Shown here one piece after another: positions 50,861 through 59,169 of a DNA stretch of 64,000 nt. This DNA comes from Natrinema sp. DC36 (GTDB lineage: Archaea; Halobacteriota; Halobacteria; Halobacteriales; Natrialbaceae), in assembly GCF_020405225.1 (NCBI RefSeq), contig NZ_CP084472.1, forward strand, positions 930,001 through 994,000. The letters are read 5' to 3'. How positions within the stretch are numbered: the first letter of the stretch is position 1; each line of letters begins with the position of its first letter. The position numbers and the translations under genes were made by a program. The notes beneath the pieces were generated by a model. That model had not been told where the DNA came from and did not search any database. It worked only from the letters and a program-made list of their open reading frames with translations.

Positions 50861-51952
50861 TCAGTCTTCCGTCTCGGTCGGCAGCTTGTTCGCCGGTTCC
50901 TGGGTAATGTTTTCCGAGACCGTGCGCCGGTTGGCCTCGCCGATTCGATCGGCGACCTCGCCGACGAGGTCCTCGAGATGGCTCTGGACCTCGCTGCCGT
51001 CGTCCTTGACGAGCGCCCCCTCGCTGCCGTCGGCTCCGAAATCGGGGTGGATCGGGATCTTTCCCAGCAACGGAACGTCGTACTTGTCGACGATGGTATC
51101 CGCACCGCCGGTCCCGAACAGCCCGTGCTGGTCGCCACAGGACGGGCAGATAAACGAACTCATGTTCTCGACGACGCCGAACACCGGCGTGTCGTGTTTG
51201 TTGAACATCTGAATTCCCTTTCGGGTGTCGTCTAACGCCATCTCCTGAGGCGTCGTGACGACGACCGATCCGGTCACCGGCATCGACTGCAACAGGTTCA
51301 GCGTCGCGTCGCCGGTCCCCGGCGGGAGGTCGACGATGAGGTAATCGAGCCGTCCCCACTCGACGCCCTCGAGGAACTTCATCATGAACTTGTTGACCAT
51401 CGGCCCGCGCAAGATTGCGGGATCGTCGTCGTCCTCCATCATCATGCCCATACTGATGACGCGGACGCCGTCCGAGCGTGGCGGCACGATTTCCTCGTTG
51501 GGCGTGACCCCGGGGTCGCTCTCGGGCGGGAGGATCTGCGGCACGTTCGGCCCGTGAATGTCGGCGTCGAGCAGGCCGACCATCGCACCGCGTTTCTCGA
51601 GCCCGGCCGCGAGGTTGGCCGCGACCGTCGTCTTGCCGACGCCACCTTTGCCGGAGGAGACGGCGATGACGTTGCGCACTTTCGGGAGGACCTCGTCGTC
51701 GAACCCGTGCTCCTCGCCGACGTGGGCCCGCAGGTCGGGCTCGAGGCCGGCGTCCTCGATGACGTCGCGGATCTGATTCCCGATCGCCATCTCGGAGGGA
51801 GCGTAGGGCGCGTTGAACGCGAGCGAAACGCGGGCCGTCTCGTCGTCGATTACGACGTCGTTGACCAGTCCGAGCGAGACGATGTCCTCGCCGATGTCCG
51901 GATCTTCGACGTCCTCGAGTTTGATCTCGAGTTCGTGTTCTGTAATGCTCAT
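50861..51952 (-). CDS. Mrp/NBP35-family iron-sulfur carrier ATPase
   Basis: 363 residues from ATG at 51952 (MSITEHELEIKLEDV). N-terminal DUF59/MIP18 domain (about 1-85: DPDIGEDIVSLGLVNDVVIDDET), then deviant Walker A VSSGKGGVGKTTVAANLAAGL (about 97-117), DADIHGPNVPQIL, GMMMEDDDDPAILRGPMV, YLIVDLPPGTGD and CPSCGDQHGLF with the CxxC that holds the transferred 4Fe-4S cluster. It builds and delivers Fe-S clusters to apo-proteins. The next gene cluster upstream encodes a four-cluster Fe-S protein, a natural client. Same strand as that operon, 137 bases away. Confidence 0.93.
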   Translation of the reverse strand: MSITEHELEIKLEDVEDPDIGEDIVSLGLVNDVVIDDETARVSLAFNAPYAPSEMAIGNQIRDVIEDAGLEPDLRAHVGEEHGFDDEVLPKVRNVIAVSSGKGGVGKTTVAANLAAGLEKRGAMVGLLDADIHGPNVPQILPPESDPGVTPNEEIVPPRSDGVRVISMGMMMEDDDDPAILRGPMVNKFMMKFLEGVEWGRLDYLIVDLPPGTGDATLNLLQSMPVTGSVVVTTPQEMALDDTRKGIQMFNKHDTPVFGVVENMSSFICPSCGDQHGLFGTGGADTIVDKYDVPLLGKIPIHPDFGADGSEGALVKDDGSEVQSHLEDLVGEVADRIGEANRRTVSENITQEPANKLPTETED

Positions 51953-52089: not shown

Positions 52090-52401
52090 TTACGGCGGGC
52101 CGACGCCGCTGATCGGCTCCGGCGGGCCGCCGTAGAAGACGATGCCGATCAGAACGGTCAGGACGAACATCCCGACCCACATCGACGTCGTCAGTCCGAC
52201 GAGGTAGCTCACGCCGAGTAGCCCGGTCTTCGTGTCGCGGGGTTCACCGAGGAACCACGCCGCGAGCATGATGTAGACCGGAACCAGGATGACCGCGAAG
52301 ATGATCCAGGTCCCCTCGTTGGCGAAGCCGGTGAAGCCGGCGGTGCCGTCGTAGCCGTGGTACAGGAGTTCCGATGGGATCGCTGTCAGTGCTGCGTTCA
52401 T
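52090..52401 (-). CDS. Small membrane subunit of the Fe-S/NrfD complex
   Basis: 103 residues. Two hydrophobic segments: GTWIIFAVILVPVYIMLAAWFL and a long VGLTTSMWVGMFVLTVLIGIVFYGG with a short hydrophilic hinge. Its ATG overlaps the stop of the NrfD gene by four bases (ATGA), so it is translated as part of that operon. No known family is recognised; position and composition suggest a third membrane subunit. Confidence 0.75.
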   Translation of the reverse strand: MNAALTAIPSELLYHGYDGTAGFTGFANEGTWIIFAVILVPVYIMLAAWFLGEPRDTKTGLLGVSYLVGLTTSMWVGMFVLTVLIGIVFYGGPPEPISGVGPP

Positions 52402-53750
52402 GCTTCCACCTCGGGTTCGGTCGCTTCGTCATCGTGTGCGTGGTCGCCGCGCAGGTGTTCGACCGCGTGGAGTTCGACCACGGGAACGAGCTTCGAGAGG
52501 TTGAGGAATAAAAGTGCAACCAGCGCAGTCGTTCCGACGAGCGAGAGCCACTCGATAAGGCTCGGGAAGTAGGTCCCGGGCGTATTGGCGTAGATGTCGA
52601 ACGTCGGGTGCAGGAATCCCTCGACGACGAACAGGATCTTCTCGGTCAGGGTCCCGGCGAGGATGATACCGCTGGCGAGGAGCGCTCGCTTCTTACTGAA
52701 CAGGGCCGGACGGATCCCCTGCAGGAAGATGTAGACGAGCGTGCCGAAGATCATCGTCATCGCAACCTGGTAGACCGGGTGGCCGATCTTCGCCTCGATC
52801 GCGACCGCCTTGTTGGTCGGTCCGAGGAAGACGCCGTTAATGATCGTCTGCAACTGGAACCACAGGAACAGCAGGGTGAAGAATCCGAGCCACAGGAGCA
52901 GTCCGCGGAAGATGTCGTCGGTGATGATGTGATCCCAGTCGTAGGCTCGGCGGAACGCGTAGGAGATGATCATGATGCCGCTGATCGCCGACATCAGCGC
53001 GATACTGAGGAACATCGGCCCCTGAATCGCACCGGTCCAGCCGGGCATCGCCGGCAGGAGTGCGAACAGCCACGGGATCACGCCGCCGTGGAGCAAGAGC
53101 GGGGCCATGATGATGACTGCGGCGGCGAGCCACCAGACCATCCGATCGATGACCTTGTCTTCCTTCTTGCTGTAGCCGATAGTCAGTATCTTGTAGATCG
53201 GTTCGAACTTGTCCGGCAGATCGTCACGTAGGCGGTTGACGTCGTAGCGCAGCGTCAGGCCGAGATAGGTCGCCGACAGCACGAAGTAGGCCGTGATGAC
53301 GGTGACGTCCCACACCAGCGGTGAGTTGTTGACCGTGATGTGGTAGTGACCGATGACGCTCGTCACCATCCGGTCCGGACGTCCCATGTGGACCAGGATG
53401 TAGAAGCCGGCGGCCGAGAGGCCGCCGATCGTCGTCATCTCTGCGAGTCGAGCGACCGGCATGTACCGGTCCATATTGAGCAGGCGGACGGCGGCCGAGA
53501 GGATGATCCCGCCGTGAGCGACGCCGACCCACCAGATGAACGCGCCGATGTACAGTCCCCAGGTCGAGCCGCCACCGCTTCCCCAGTCGCCGAGGCCGGT
53601 GACGATCAGGCCCTGTTGGAGCTGGTAGGCCCAGGCGATGAGGAAGGCGACGAGGCCCAGTGCAGCGACACCGTACATGATGAAGTACTTCGTCGTGAGC
53701 GTGTTGATCGGACGAAGGATGTCCGCTTCCGTTGGCTCCTTCGTGCTCAT
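52398..53750 (-). CDS. NrfD/PsrC-type membrane subunit
   Basis: 450 residues with about ten membrane helices (ALGLVAFLIAWAYQL; LYIGAFIWWVGVAHGGIILSAAV; DVTVITAYFVLSATYLGL; AAAVIIMAPLLLHGGVIPWLFALL and onward to LSLVGTTALVALLFLNL). The NrfD family binds and oxidises or reduces quinones at the membrane and passes electrons to an Fe-S subunit. ATG overlaps the Fe-S gene stop by four bases, and its own stop overlaps the next gene, a tight operon. N terminus MSTKEPTEADILRPIN is cytoplasmic-looking. No catalytic subunit follows in the operon. Confidence 0.9.
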   Translation of the reverse strand: MSTKEPTEADILRPINTLTTKYFIMYGVAALGLVAFLIAWAYQLQQGLIVTGLGDWGSGGGSTWGLYIGAFIWWVGVAHGGIILSAAVRLLNMDRYMPVARLAEMTTIGGLSAAGFYILVHMGRPDRMVTSVIGHYHITVNNSPLVWDVTVITAYFVLSATYLGLTLRYDVNRLRDDLPDKFEPIYKILTIGYSKKEDKVIDRMVWWLAAAVIIMAPLLLHGGVIPWLFALLPAMPGWTGAIQGPMFLSIALMSAISGIMIISYAFRRAYDWDHIITDDIFRGLLLWLGFFTLLFLWFQLQTIINGVFLGPTNKAVAIEAKIGHPVYQVAMTMIFGTLVYIFLQGIRPALFSKKRALLASGIILAGTLTEKILFVVEGFLHPTFDIYANTPGTYFPSLIEWLSLVGTTALVALLFLNLSKLVPVVELHAVEHLRGDHAHDDEATEPEVEA

Positions 53751-55396
53751 AAGGACACCCCGTCAATGCGCCCGACCGTGCCCTCGTCGAGGTCTTTCTG
53801 ACGCTCGTCGAGCAGGTCGACGTCCTCGTAGTCGGTCGGTCCGTCGACCTGATGGGCCTCCGGACCGGGCTGTTGGCCGAGGTAGGTGATGTTCGGGTTC
53901 GTTCCGATGTCTTCGAGCAGTTGGAACGAACTCGGGTTGCCCGTGTACTGCTCGAGTCGGAACTGGGCCTGCTGTTCGCTGCCATCGCCGAGTCTCAGTT
54001 CGGTGTACGCCTCCTCGGTGTCGAGGGCGACGTACTGTTGGAAGGCCTCGACCGCGGAGAGGATTTCCTGTTGGTTCTGGAGAATGGAGTTGTTCTCCTT
54101 GTCGCCGGGCTCGGTGCCCTCACTGACGATTTCGATCGCCTTCATGACCGCGAGGATGTCCACGGTGAGGCCCTCGATATTCTCGATCGCGGTCTCGAGA
54201 TCGTCGCCCTCACTGAGGGCGCTGTTAATCTGGTCAGCCGACGGAGCTTGTTTGCTGCTTTCAGTGGCGTTCGTCAGGTGAATGACCGCGCGACTCTTGA
54301 CCGGGTGCTCGCGGTGCTGGGACGGATCGCTCTTCTCGTCTTTGACGTTGCCGAACTGGATCGCGCCCGGCGGACAGGCCGACTCGCAGGCGGTCGTCCC
54401 GATCTTGTCTTCTCCCTGTCTGCCGTCCTGCATGGACGGACACATCGTACACTTGCTCATCGTCCCGCGAGGCGCGCGACTGTCGACCCAGCGCTCGCCG
54501 TATTCGTACTCGGCGTGCGTGATCTGATCGGGGTCGTCGGCATCGCGACCCTCTGGGATGTTCTCGTAGGCCGTATCGGGTTCGTCCCACTGGAAGTAGT
54601 TGACGCCGTAGGGGCAGGCGACCTGACAGTACCGGCAGCCGATACAGACGTCGTAGTCGGTGAGAACCAGTCCGTCCTTGTCGCGCGTGTGACGCGCCGT
54701 CGTCGGGCAGACCTTCTCGCAAGGAGCGTCCGTGCAGTGCTGGCACGGTCGCACGAGCATGTTGAAGTCGCTCCCCATGTTGAAGTCGGTGTAGACGTCG
54801 TGCTCGGTGTCTTCCTCCTGGCCGTGGTGGAGCTCGTCCTCCCAGGCCATGACGTACATCCAGTTGACGCCCTGGTCGAGATCGTTCTCCTCGGAACAGG
54901 CCGTCATACAGGAGAGACAGCCGTCACACCGCTCGAGGTCGATCGTCATCCCCCACTGGGTGTCGCGCTCCTCGGTGGTCTCCTGGCGCGGGCCTTCGGC
55001 CACGCTGTGCTCGGGACCGTCGCTGACGGTGCCGAACGCACCGAGACCGACGGCCGCCGCGCCGACGCCCATCTTCTTCATCGTCTCGCGACGGGTTTCG
55101 TCGCCGTCGCCGTCGAACTTGTCGACCATTCGGGAGAACGTGCCCTTCGCCTCCTCCTGGGCCGCCTCGTAGGCCTCCTTGGTCGGTCGCTCGTCCTCGC
55201 CGAACTCCTCCATCACGTCCTCGTGATACTTCTCGTGGAAGTCGGCTTCGGAGAGTTCGCCCTTGGTGACCCGCATCGCGTCGCGGGCCATATCCATACC
55301 GAGCTGGCTGTCGTACTCGGTATCGTCGAGCATCGTCTCGAGTTCGCCTTCCCACTCGTCTCCGAGGGGGTGGAATGATTCATCGTCCGTGCTCAT
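53747..55396 (-). CDS. 4Fe-4S ferredoxin-type subunit with long N- and C-terminal extensions
   Basis: 549 residues. The acidic N-terminal 95 residues precede a Tat-like stretch, DETRRETMKKMGVGAAAVGL (about 99-118). Then comes a four-cluster DmsB/PsrB domain: C157, C160, C163, C167; C218, C221, C226, C230; C251, C254, C257, C261; C316, C319, C337, C341. A long insert in cluster three (DEPDTAYENIPEGRDADDPD) and about 200 residues of C-terminal extension without Cys follow. It transfers electrons between the NrfD subunit and a partner, probably a molybdopterin enzyme that is not encoded in this window. First gene of a three-gene operon. Confidence 0.9.
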   Translation of the reverse strand: MSTDDESFHPLGDEWEGELETMLDDTEYDSQLGMDMARDAMRVTKGELSEADFHEKYHEDVMEEFGEDERPTKEAYEAAQEEAKGTFSRMVDKFDGDGDETRRETMKKMGVGAAAVGLGAFGTVSDGPEHSVAEGPRQETTEERDTQWGMTIDLERCDGCLSCMTACSEENDLDQGVNWMYVMAWEDELHHGQEEDTEHDVYTDFNMGSDFNMLVRPCQHCTDAPCEKVCPTTARHTRDKDGLVLTDYDVCIGCRYCQVACPYGVNYFQWDEPDTAYENIPEGRDADDPDQITHAEYEYGERWVDSRAPRGTMSKCTMCPSMQDGRQGEDKIGTTACESACPPGAIQFGNVKDEKSDPSQHREHPVKSRAVIHLTNATESSKQAPSADQINSALSEGDDLETAIENIEGLTVDILAVMKAIEIVSEGTEPGDKENNSILQNQQEILSAVEAFQQYVALDTEEAYTELRLGDGSEQQAQFRLEQYTGNPSSFQLLEDIGTNPNITYLGQQPGPEAHQVDGPTDYEDVDLLDERQKDLDEGTVGRIDGVSL

Positions 55397-55832: not shown

Positions 55833-56507
55833 TTATTGACTCGCGATCTGTTCCTCGAGATTCTCCTCCTCGGTGACGCCCGGGATGTCGTCGACGAACC
55901 GCTTGATAATCGCTTCCTCTGCCCGGTGGATCGTTTCGCTACACGTGGACTTGGCGATCTCGAGGTGGCCGGCCAGCTCCGTCAGTGAACAGCGCCGCGG
56001 GGTGTCGTAGTAGCCGGCTTCGACGGCGGCGACGATCACCTCGAGTTGACGGTCCGAGAGGAGTTGGCTCTCGTGGAGCCGCTCGCGGACGTGATCGATC
56101 CGATACTGGAGGCCGAAGTGTTCGAGCTGTTCGGCGAGTTCGGCCAGTCGCTCGCGGGAGCCGGTGACGTCGATCGTCGCCTCGCCGTCCTGGATTTCGA
56201 TCGGCAATTCAATCGGCATCCCCGACTCTCGAGAGGAGAACAAGAGGAGCGGTGCGGTGGTCTCGAAGTGGACCGTCGCCTCGTCGTCGCTCCACTGGGC
56301 GAGCGAGAGTTCGGTGATCTGGGGGTGTTCCTCCATGGCTTCGACCACCGCAGGGGTTTCCGCACCGGCGATTCGGACGAGGGCGAAGCCGGTGTCTGAG
56401 CCGGGAACGGCCGCGAGGACCCGAAAGGTCGATTCGGGGAAGTCCGTCGAAATCTGTTGAATCCAGATCGACTCGGGCATCGTGAGCGTGAGGGTTGCGT
56501 GGGCCAT
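55833..56507 (-). CDS. HTH-10 (Bat/DmsR-type) transcriptional regulator
   Basis: 224 residues. Alpha/beta sensor part (1-150) starting HATLTLTMPESIWIQQIST. The C-terminal HTH_10 (about 155-215) reads LLSDRQLEVIVAAVEAGYYDTPRRCSLTELAGHLEIAKSTCSETIHRAEEAI. The N-terminal Cys-rich cluster of NarO-type regulators is absent, so redox/metal sensing through Cys is not evident; DmsR-like regulators look like this. A minus-strand TATA (GTATATAG, about 56537-56530) lies about 26 nt before the ATG. Two GAAC-type dyads, at 56510 and 56546, surround the promoter. Likely controls the Fe-S/NrfD or DUF2249/nirK genes. Confidence 0.87.
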   Translation of the reverse strand: MAHATLTLTMPESIWIQQISTDFPESTFRVLAAVPGSDTGFALVRIAGAETPAVVEAMEEHPQITELSLAQWSDDEATVHFETTAPLLLFSSRESGMPIELPIEIQDGEATIDVTGSRERLAELAEQLEHFGLQYRIDHVRERLHESQLLSDRQLEVIVAAVEAGYYDTPRRCSLTELAGHLEIAKSTCSETIHRAEEAIIKRFVDDIPGVTEEENLEEQIASQ

Positions 56508-57616: not shown

Positions 57617-57972
57617 ATGATTGATGACCTCAACCGACGGCAATTTGCGGACCTGCTCGCAGCGACGACGATCGCGGCCTACGTTCTCGTCGCGCTCGGG
57701 ACTGCCGTCTCCGCGACGCTCGCCGGTGGCGTCCTCGCGATCGGCGCGAACGGGACGTTCAATCACGTGTACGAACGCGACCGCGATCGGCGGATGAACC
57801 GGACGGCCGACCGACCGACGAGGTCGCGCTCCGTTCGTTTTACGTCTCGAACTACTACCTCGGCGCGATCCTTCTCGCGATCGTCCTCGAGACGCTCGTA
57901 ATCGCCGGCCAACTGCCGTCGAACGCCACGTCGTCACCCGCTCCCGTCGGCAGTTTTCTGAGGAGTATATAG
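57617..57972 (+). pseudogene. ctaB (heme O synthase) remnant with internal deletion and frameshift
   Basis: The first frame (from ATG 57617) ends in LAIGANGTFNHVYERDRDRRMNRTADRP, matching the UbiA-type aspartate-rich motif NxxxDRDxDRxMxRTxxRP of protoheme IX farnesyltransferase. From 57817 the sequence continues in another frame as DEVALRSFYVSNYYLGAILLAIVLETLVIAGQ, resembling the C-terminal helices of CtaB, ending at TAG 57970-57972. About 200 central residues are missing and the junction is out of frame, so no functional enzyme is made. Confidence 0.7.
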
Positions 57973-58071: not shown

Positions 58072-59169
58072 ATGACCCAACACAACGCTCACCGACGACG
58101 GTTCCTGCAGGCGATGGGTGCAGCTGGAGCGGTCGCAGTCGCCGGCTGCCTCGGCGGTGACGAATCGGGCACCGAAGCAAACAGCGGCCAGAACGGCGGC
58201 GAGAAGGAGAAGGAGGGACTGGCGGCAGCGAAGTCAGTCGACGTCGACCGGATCGCGCGAGATCCGACGGACGTTCCGGCGCCGGTCGACTGGAGCGAGC
58301 CCCGCACGCACGACATCACGCTTCAGACCGAGCGAGTGACCGCGGAGATCGAACCCGGGGTCACGTTCGACTACATGACCTTCGAGGGGCAGGTGCCGGG
58401 GCCGATGGTTCGGGTCCGCCAGGGTGACACGGTCAATCTCACCTTCGACGTCCCCGAGGACATGAACATGGTGATGCACAACGTCGACTTCCACGCGGTC
58501 TACGGCCCCGGCGGCGGTGCTGACGCGACGACGATCGCCCCCGACGATGACCCGACCCAGATCAAATTCCGCGCGGAGTACCCAGGCGTGTTCATCTACC
58601 ACTGTGCGGTCCCGGCCATGGACTACCACATCAGTAGCGGCATGTTCGGTTCGATCCTCGTCGAACCCGAAGACGGCCTCCCCGAGGTCGACAACGAGCT
58701 CTACCTCGGCCAGCACGAGATCTACACCGCCGGCGAGGTCGGCGAAGAGGGCCACCATCCGTTCGATCACGACGCGATGATGCGCGAAGAACCCACCTAC
58801 GTCGTCTTCAACGGCCAGGCCTACGGCTTCACCGAAGACGGCGTCGGCCCCATGCAGACCAACACCGGCGAGACCGCCCGGGTCTACTTCGCCAACGGCG
58901 GCCCCAACCTGCTGAGTTCGTTCCACCCGATCGGCAACGTCTGGAGCAACCTCTACCGCAGCGGCGACCTGCTGAGCGACCCCGCCAACAACGTCGAAAC
59001 GACCCCCGTCCCGCCGGGTACCACCACCGCCGCTGAGATGGAGTTCCCCGTCCCTGGGCCGGTCAAGCTCGTCGACCACGCCCTCTCGCGGGTCGTCCAC
59101 CGCGGCGCGCTCGGCGTCGTCAACGTCCATGGCGAGGAGAACCCCGACGTCTACGACGAGGATCCGTGA
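58072..59169 (+). CDS. nirK: Copper nitrite reductase NirK
   Basis: 365 residues. Tat/lipoprotein signal: RRRFLQAMGAAGAVAVAGCLGG with twin Arg and a lipobox-like Cys near residue 25, so the enzyme acts outside the membrane. Two cupredoxin domains. Copper ligands by eye: His in HNVDFHAVYG (type 1 and type 2 sites) and the C-H-M set in YHCAVPAMDYHISSGMFG. The enzyme reduces nitrite to nitric oxide in denitrification. Located next to the DUF2249 genes and an HTH-10 regulator; no nitric oxide or nitrous oxide reductase gene is in the window. A TATA-like TTCTATTACC (58001-58010) lies about 65 nt upstream. Confidence 0.92.
   Translation: MTQHNAHRRRFLQAMGAAGAVAVAGCLGGDESGTEANSGQNGGEKEKEGLAAAKSVDVDRIARDPTDVPAPVDWSEPRTHDITLQTERVTAEIEPGVTFDYMTFEGQVPGPMVRVRQGDTVNLTFDVPEDMNMVMHNVDFHAVYGPGGGADATTIAPDDDPTQIKFRAEYPGVFIYHCAVPAMDYHISSGMFGSILVEPEDGLPEVDNELYLGQHEIYTAGEVGEEGHHPFDHDAMMREEPTYVVFNGQAYGFTEDGVGPMQTNTGETARVYFANGGPNLLSSFHPIGNVWSNLYRSGDLLSDPANNVETTPVPPGTTTAAEMEFPVPGPVKLVDHALSRVVHRGALGVVNVHGEENPDVYDEDP

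Follow-up and report, generated by a model that had tools for sequence, protein, structure and literature searches.

A conserved haloarchaeal FeS-NrfD operon without a molybdoenzyme as a probable heme-free, minimal relative of alternative complex III

What does an iron-sulfur/NrfD operon do when no catalytic subunit is encoded beside it? The question is raised by three genes of Natrinema sp. DC36, located in the 64,000-nucleotide stretch between positions 930,001 and 994,000 of contig NZ_CP084472.1 (the whole stretch is called the window below). They encode an iron-sulfur (FeS) subunit, an NrfD-type membrane protein and a small membrane protein, and we refer to them as the trio. Our answer, to which we give a probability of roughly 0.7, is that the trio functions as a menaquinol:halocyanin oxidoreductase and represents a minimal, heme-free relative of alternative complex III. 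This reading was built on the gene order, homology to ActC, the residues of the quinone site and most of the printed residues of the proton half-channel, the halocyanin and oxidase neighbours, the distribution of cytochrome b and the CuA motifs. The parts of the trio are as follows:

53747..55396, minus strand: FeS subunit P0001 (549 aa), with a Ferredoxin_N domain at aa 9-73 and four [4Fe-4S] motifs within aa 157-341
55034..55093, minus strand: twin-Arg motif RRETMKKMG followed by a hydrophobic stretch, together aa 102-121 of the FeS subunit and preceded by a pre-signal domain
52398..53750, minus strand: NrfD/ActC-like, putatively quinone-reactive membrane subunit P0002 (450 aa, ten helices; PF03916), with ActC-site residues
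52090..52401, minus strand: small membrane subunit P0003 (103 aa), encoded third in the cassette

A sequence-only reading of this stretch had described three overlapping genes for a four-cluster FeS protein, a ten-helix NrfD protein and a 103-residue membrane protein, and this description was confirmed. The FeS/NrfD and NrfD/small gene pairs each overlap as ATGA, all on the minus strand. The Pfam scan assigned residues 9-73 of P0001 to PF16947 (Ferredoxin_N, 117 bits), followed by Fer4 domains, and P0002 to PF03916 (NrfD), while P0003 had no family above cut-off. All 16 cluster cysteines are present in P0001, which also has a variable acidic insert at about aa 370-485, and a pattern search found all four cluster motifs in 79 of 84 FeS homologues. 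The AlphaFold model of P0002, of moderate confidence (pLDDT 64), displays ten long helices.

We compared the gene order in two sets of loci, 51 loci with a relative of the FeS gene from a scan of the genome collection (first set) and 60 regions around PF16947 matches (second set). Genes were called with a codon-based caller, which found few in the lower-GC locus L126, so plain open reading frames were used there. NrfD is the next gene after FeS in 46 of the 51 first-set loci, and in the other five (L035, L041, L044, L047 and L052) an FeS paralogue stands alone. Of the 46 loci, 45 have the small protein gene and 43 a P-loop ATPase gene, the ATPase exceptions being L028, which stops within NrfD, and L053 and L054, which have other genes. 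A BAT-type regulator is present in 42 of the 51 loci. The same cassette was recovered at 32 of the 60 second-set loci (31 from the gene caller and L126 from plain reading frames; no ATPase gene was found in L126, and in L122 the small gene was not called). These come from families f1, f2, f3, f4, f7, f9, f10 and f11, and the order FeS, NrfD, small protein, ATPase recurs across eight haloarchaeal families. Of the 31 called cassettes, 24 have no more than 3 bp in either gap within the trio and five have 40-50 bp in one or both; the exceptions are L122 and L125, whose NrfD is split in two frames. Each cassette has one NrfD. The remaining second-set loci comprise seven with a variant FeS-NrfD-small arrangement without the ATPase (class E), five with FeS beside a different NrfD of 331-340 aa (all five above the Pfam NrfD cut-off), six FeS-NrfD-MopB loci (MopB of about 1,100 aa), eight dms-like loci and one lone FeS (L096); L132 was left unclassified, as the gene caller showed no FeS gene there. 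Among the 392 genomes of the phylum searched, the best non-haloarchaeal match to the trio NrfD had an E-value of 1e-35. The downstream ATPase gene, which starts 137 bp from the trio, and the upstream regulator had not been named in the sequence-only reading and belong to the conserved cassette:

50861..51952, minus strand: Mrp/ApbC/NBP35-type P-loop ATPase (363 aa; Pfam PF10609, 'iron-transfer P-loop NTPase'), fourth conserved gene
55833..56507, minus strand: HTH_10/BAT-type regulator (224 aa), upstream of the trio

The NrfD subunit is closest to ActC, both by sequence and by fold. A profile of 22 trio NrfD proteins (alignment A1) matched only four PDB sequences at E<=1, all of them ActC (8k9e, 6lod, 6btm and 6f0k, E 1e-26 to 1e-28). 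Foldseek with the AlphaFold model placed the same four chains on top with a TM-score of about 0.67, followed by ActF, and polysulfide reductase PsrC came far lower (E 0.03). According to PMC8076601, the quinone site of R. marinus ActC consists of His139, Ser164, Asp169 and Asp253. The first three correspond to H121, S143 and D148 of the trio protein, each conserved in 22/22 sequences of A1. The same paper places His97, Ser103, Arg119, Glu122, Thr125, Tyr176, Asp191 and Arg196 in the N-side proton half-channel; their counterparts H79, S85, R101, E104, T107, Y155, D170 and R175 are all invariant in A1, that of Arg196 being set by eye next to Asp197. As for the other half-channel residues printed there, Asp197 corresponds to D176 (19/22) and Ser180 to S or T, and Thr100, Arg114 and His247 are not kept in the alignment. 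In a tree of 48 NrfD rows the trio proteins form one clade (94/97), and trio and variant proteins group with ActC at a split (97/93, with long branches) which sets off seven of the eight dms-like NrfD proteins and the class with the 1,100-aa MopB. The dms-locus protein B_L150, itself on a long branch, falls on the trio/ActC side. In PMC8076601, 42 'DmsC' sequences from 24 euryarchaeal species also grouped with ActC, and some of them may be trio proteins. For the FeS subunit, the best PDB match of the profile was ActB of 6lod (E 5e-37), followed by 6cz7_B, titled 4Fe-4S ferredoxin (2e-34), and ActB of 6f0k (1e-33). Its AlphaFold model (pLDDT 52) was poor and was not used.

Alternative complex III (ActABCDEF) is the known system nearest to the trio by NrfD sequence and fold and by the best FeS match, and we propose an identical role. 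According to PMC8552683 and PMC5928083, the bacterial complex passes electrons from menaquinol to cytochrome c, a high-potential iron-sulfur protein or, in R. castenholzii, the blue-copper protein auracyanin, the last of these being also of the acceptor type proposed here. The composition differs. The trio FeS subunit has the Fe-S part only and lacks the cofactor-less MopB domain of ActB, no second NrfD (ActF) or ActD was seen in the cassette, and the Ferredoxin_N domain, the small membrane protein and the Mrp-type ATPase are additions of the trio. The DsrOP, HybAB and QrcCD modules share the FeS and NrfD pair, and NCBIfam DsrO and DsrP are the best family matches of the trio, but far under their cut-offs (124 vs 200 and 75 vs 350, respectively).

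The distribution of the trio was compared with that of PetB, the cytochrome b of the haloarchaeal b6f/bc1-type complex PetABD, to which the same menaquinol to halocyanin step is ascribed as we propose for the cytochrome b-less trio. Over 391 genomes of the class, trio NrfD was counted at E<=1e-130 and PetB (PF00033) at E<=1e-38, and two weak trio matches (G318 and G360, E about 1e-133), which are class E paralogues, were removed before the two-by-two count. The PetB matches have E-values of 1e-39 to 1e-49 and, among those listed, frames mostly of about 265-320 aa; a longer cytochrome b, with frames of 437-591 aa and one of 727 aa, matches at 1e-26 to 1e-33. The trio is present in 129 genomes and PetB in 283, and the two are largely complementary: 33 genomes have both, 96 the trio only, 250 PetB only and 12 neither (Fisher odds ratio 0.017, p 2e-48, uncorrected for kinship). 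The pattern holds within family f1, to which the window belongs and where 90 of 101 genomes carry the trio (80 trio only, 10 both, 11 PetB only, none neither; p 2e-9), and within genus g41 (6, 1, 4 and 0 genomes; p 0.015). Trio-only genomes occur in four families, f1, f3 (two genera), f10 and f11. No PF00033 cytochrome b at E<=1e-3 was found in 92 of the 96 trio-only genomes (0/80 and 0/12; G300, G363, G367 and G381 lay outside this check), and the genome of the window likewise gave no match at this threshold. The 108 PetB-negative genomes are thus made up of 96 with the trio, eight with another cytochrome b, three without COX1 and one draft. The trio apparently largely replaces cytochrome b in haloarchaea.

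The search for COX1, the cytochrome oxidase subunit, covered 21 genomes. It gave no match in G001, G007 and G093, which have neither trio nor PetB, and it found COX1 together with the long cytochrome b in eight further genomes of this group (G002, G010, G039, G221, G222, G237, G347 and G380). A Rieske-motif protein is encoded beside the long cytochrome b at all ten loci inspected (L183-L192), and the five that were scanned score above the Pfam Rieske cut-off. At L183-L185 there is also a narG-like gene, judged by motif. Loci L186-L192, from the PetB-negative and trio-free genomes G222, G039, G002, G221, G010, G237 and G380, represent a second type of complex that combines a Rieske protein with the long cytochrome b, and no narG-like gene was seen in these short loci.

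The neighbours of the cassette point to copper carriers and oxidases. In eight of the 31 called second-set cassettes (L093, L101, L103, L105, L106, L108, L109 and L121) the gene immediately before FeS, 46-152 bp away and in the same orientation, encodes a copper protein, and L103 and L105 have a second copper gene behind it. A divergent copper protein gene is found upstream in L126 (family f10, about 400 bp). All eight same-strand neighbours and that of L126 score above the Pfam Copper-bind cut-off, and the divergent one of L112 (f9) is weak (20.1 vs 21.2). Both proteins tested against NCBIfam halocyanin TIGR03102, those of L105 and L106, were above cut-off. Our own halocyanin profile was built from the upstream genes which it scored, and the Pfam scans serve as the independent check. 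Regarding oxidases, a CuA motif in COX2 marks enzymes fed by one-electron carriers. In the Natrinema sp. DC36 genome this motif is present in COX2 at three of five COX1-type loci (L205, L207 and L208); it was not seen in L206, and L209 resembles nitric oxide reductase. CuA motifs beside COX1 also occur in the trio-only genomes G036, G117 and G218. In the Natrinema loci L005, L006 and L017, genes for COX1, COX2 and a CtaA-UbiA fusion lie upstream of the cassette, some 2-7 kb from FeS, joined in L005 and L006 by SCO1 and copper protein genes (identified by Pfam in L017 and L006 and by clustering in L005). A lone FeS paralogue adjoins a cox operon in L052. In f11, neighbours of the trio include CcmF-like and di-haem peroxidase genes (L122) and a heavy-metal ATPase gene (L116). 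All seven class E loci carry either a 2Fe-2S ferredoxin gene (L102, L104, L110, L111 and L117) or an EB_dh gene (L107 and L120). The shared theme of the neighbourhoods is an electron carrier, not a molybdoenzyme. Further FeS-NrfD operons without MopB beside 2Fe-2S ferredoxin or EB_dh-type genes were noticed in L130, L131, L134, L137 and L139, with the ferredoxin assigned by Pfam in L130, as it was in the five class E loci above.

From these data we infer a reaction, its direction and acceptor, export, proton translocation and roles for the small protein and the ATPase. Menaquinol would be oxidised at the outer side of the NrfD/ActC-like subunit, and the electrons would run through the four Fe-S clusters of a Tat-exported (twin-arginine translocated) FeS subunit to a blue-copper carrier. 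The carrier would be halocyanin, or the electrons would enter a cupredoxin domain directly, for instance that of the copper nitrite reductase NirK. From the carrier they would go on to CuA-type cytochrome oxidases and also to NirK where this is present. That the small subunit stabilises the membrane part is a guess, and the adjoining ATPase would load the Fe-S clusters. We consider it somewhat better than an even bet that this proton-translocating, Fe-S-only archaeal form of alternative complex III is the general complex III of the trio-only haloarchaea (96/391, roughly one quarter), carrying electrons from menaquinol to halocyanins. According to PMC8305020 and PMC3403918, there is no bc1 complex in Natrialbales and some others, and how electrons reach halocyanin is an unresolved question; PMC3403918 reports bc1 genes to be missing from Nab. 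magadii, Htg. turkmenica and Nmn. pharaonis. For this published gap in electron flow without complex III, the trio offers a specific candidate. If so, an ActC-like membrane module and a four-cluster Fe-S protein can act as complex III without hemes. Table 2 of PMC10100899 lists 0 archaeal ActB, and in the literature searched, with subscription journals mostly outside it and several papers in excerpt, we found no proposal that haloarchaea have an alternative complex III or a complex which reduces halocyanin.

Several observations weigh against this proposal. The fourth quinone-site residue of ActC, D253, is replaced by L228 in the trio NrfD. The heme subunits that carry electrons in bacterial alternative complex III (ActA and ActE) have no counterpart among the genes called next to the trio in the window, the part of the genome covered by this check. 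The trio of the window has no adjoining halocyanin gene, and the halocyanin profile, run on the window and nine other pieces of the genome, gave only NirK and a weak match. The four f1 loci with an adjoining halocyanin gene (L093, L101, L106 and L121) come from PetB-carrying genomes (G224, G047, G345 and G045), as does L112 (G257); the trio-only genomes among the copper-adjoining loci are only those of four g60 loci and L126. The genomes compared are related, so the p-values overstate independence. In the 33 genomes with both trio and PetB the trio is no simple substitute, and there it may be condition-specific. Finally, G366 (about 150 contigs, 91% complete) has COX1 but neither trio nor PetB, and G129, from which L126 comes, carries the trio and no COX1.

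A further point against is at the same time an argument for a different view, in which quinol oxidases suffice, no complex III is needed and the trio does other work, such as passing electrons from an outside donor to menaquinone. PMC6176080 reports natronoarchaeal genomes without complex III or homologues of the alternative complex and argues for quinol-type oxidases in them. A search of that kind could miss an ActC-like protein that lacks ActB and hemes. The 2Fe-2S ferredoxin and EB_dh genes next to related FeS-NrfD operons could encode such donors. The three COX2 genes with CuA motifs in the same genome, the tracking of cytochrome b absence by the trio and its adjacency to halocyanin genes speak against this view, which we regard as unlikely.

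Another possibility is that the trio serves denitrification, supplying electrons specifically to NirK under control of the BAT-type regulator. The relevant gene of the window is:

58072..59169, plus strand: NirK copper nitrite reductase, variable neighbour of the trio

NirK and DUF2249 genes adjoin the trio here, a NirK-like gene lies directly upstream and divergent in L128, and a NarG-like gene is situated 4.3 kb away in L112. However, NirK is near only 14 of the 51 first-set loci, though FeS-NrfD is intact in 46, and the trio is present in nine tenths of the f1 genomes. A NirK-dedicated module is weakened by this variability and appears quite improbable to us, NirK being instead a possible end user of electrons from the trio. 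The sequence-only reading had suggested a novel partner in the NirK neighbourhood. A copper protein as the type of partner is retained from that suggestion; NirK itself is not, as it is so seldom near and halocyanin recurs in other lineages.

The same reading had found no catalytic subunit beside the trio, and indeed no molybdopterin gene adjoins it within the window. It had also considered a catalytic subunit encoded elsewhere, and a molybdopterin gene regularly adjacent in relatives as a sign of simple rearrangement. Over 82 loci (the first set plus the second-set cassettes called by the gene caller; 4.5 to 21.8 kb of DNA per locus), a molybdoenzyme gene lies in the DNA of only two, L094 (4.9 kb away) and L112 (4.3 kb), each time with a further FeS-type gene beside it. 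The whole Natrinema sp. DC36 genome has two PF00384 matches, one being NasA (NF041323, 1240 bits, cut-off 1000) and the other formate dehydrogenase alpha (TIGR01591, 740 bits, cut-off 666), which speaks against the catalytic subunit elsewhere if a molybdoenzyme was intended; no twin-Arg signal was seen in the N-termini of either protein. Because the cassette order recurs, MopB is distant in the two loci that have it and the genome's own two are NasA and formate dehydrogenase, the trio is not a molybdoenzyme operon whose catalytic gene has gone missing. Simple local rearrangement was ruled out, the cassette being the rule across families, and so was a relic of a dms operon, given that no MopB adjoins, NrfD branches separately from 7/8 dms-like proteins and conservation is strong. 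A dimethyl sulfoxide or polysulfide reductase-like complex with a molybdenum subunit encoded elsewhere, or its relic, is for the same reasons very improbable, even though the FeS subunit resembles DmsB/PsrB types and PF16947 and BAT-type regulators occur in dms-like operons too.

The haloarchaeal dms-like operons (L145-L152) share with the trio PF16947, a four-cluster FeS protein and NrfD, and several have a BAT-type regulator gene. They differ in the presence of MopB, in an extra gene of about 190-230 aa and in PF16947 forming a separate small gene. The separate PF16947 protein has about 74-121 aa and is encoded in front of MopB, which we take to be the dmsE position. The pre-Tat domain of the trio FeS subunit may be a fused maturation factor. 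This touches on the twin-Arg motif, which is placed unusually, about 100 aa from the N terminus, and which the sequence-only reading had on that ground not accepted as a normal signal. That conclusion now seems doubtful. R102 and R103 are invariant in 19/19 aligned FeS proteins, including three lone paralogues, and RR followed by a hydrophobic stretch, matching the Tat-type signature, was found by pattern in 82 of the 84 FeS homologues. Extended pre-Tat regions are found in some molybdoenzymes. On sequence grounds we read the twin-Arg motif as a real but late Tat signal, and export of the subunit is predicted.

Some observations concern additional copies of the trio genes. The small membrane protein is encoded by two tandem copies behind NrfD in 14 of the 51 first-set loci (L014, L015, L019-L021, L023, L029, L031, L033, L034, L037, L038, L046 and L051). 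The Natrinema sp. DC36 genome has a second FeS paralogue (G000:C1:1442135; L092:9585-11258), which stands alone beside the phosphoenolpyruvate carboxylase gene, as in L035 and L047. None of these three lone copies matches the pattern at the fourth cluster motif, with Cys replaced by Asp in L035, and from the motif they may hold a different cluster. A second trio-type NrfD (G000:C1:3109341-3110666; L086:9342-10664) is unlinked, with no FeS or small gene adjoining. The in-frame TAG in it was read as an ordinary stop near the end of the match, the reading frame being open up to it. Two copies each of NrfD and PF16947 are present in many genomes of the family, which suggests an unlinked second complex there.

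Upstream of the trio, positions 57617-57901 of the window (plus strand) hold a truncated UbiA/heme-synthase remnant of 94 aa (Pfam UbiA, 39 bits). At the same position in L005, L006 and L017 lies the CtaA-UbiA fusion of 476-485 aa beside the cox genes. The oxidase cluster of the window may have been lost beside the trio, with NirK now located beyond the remnant.

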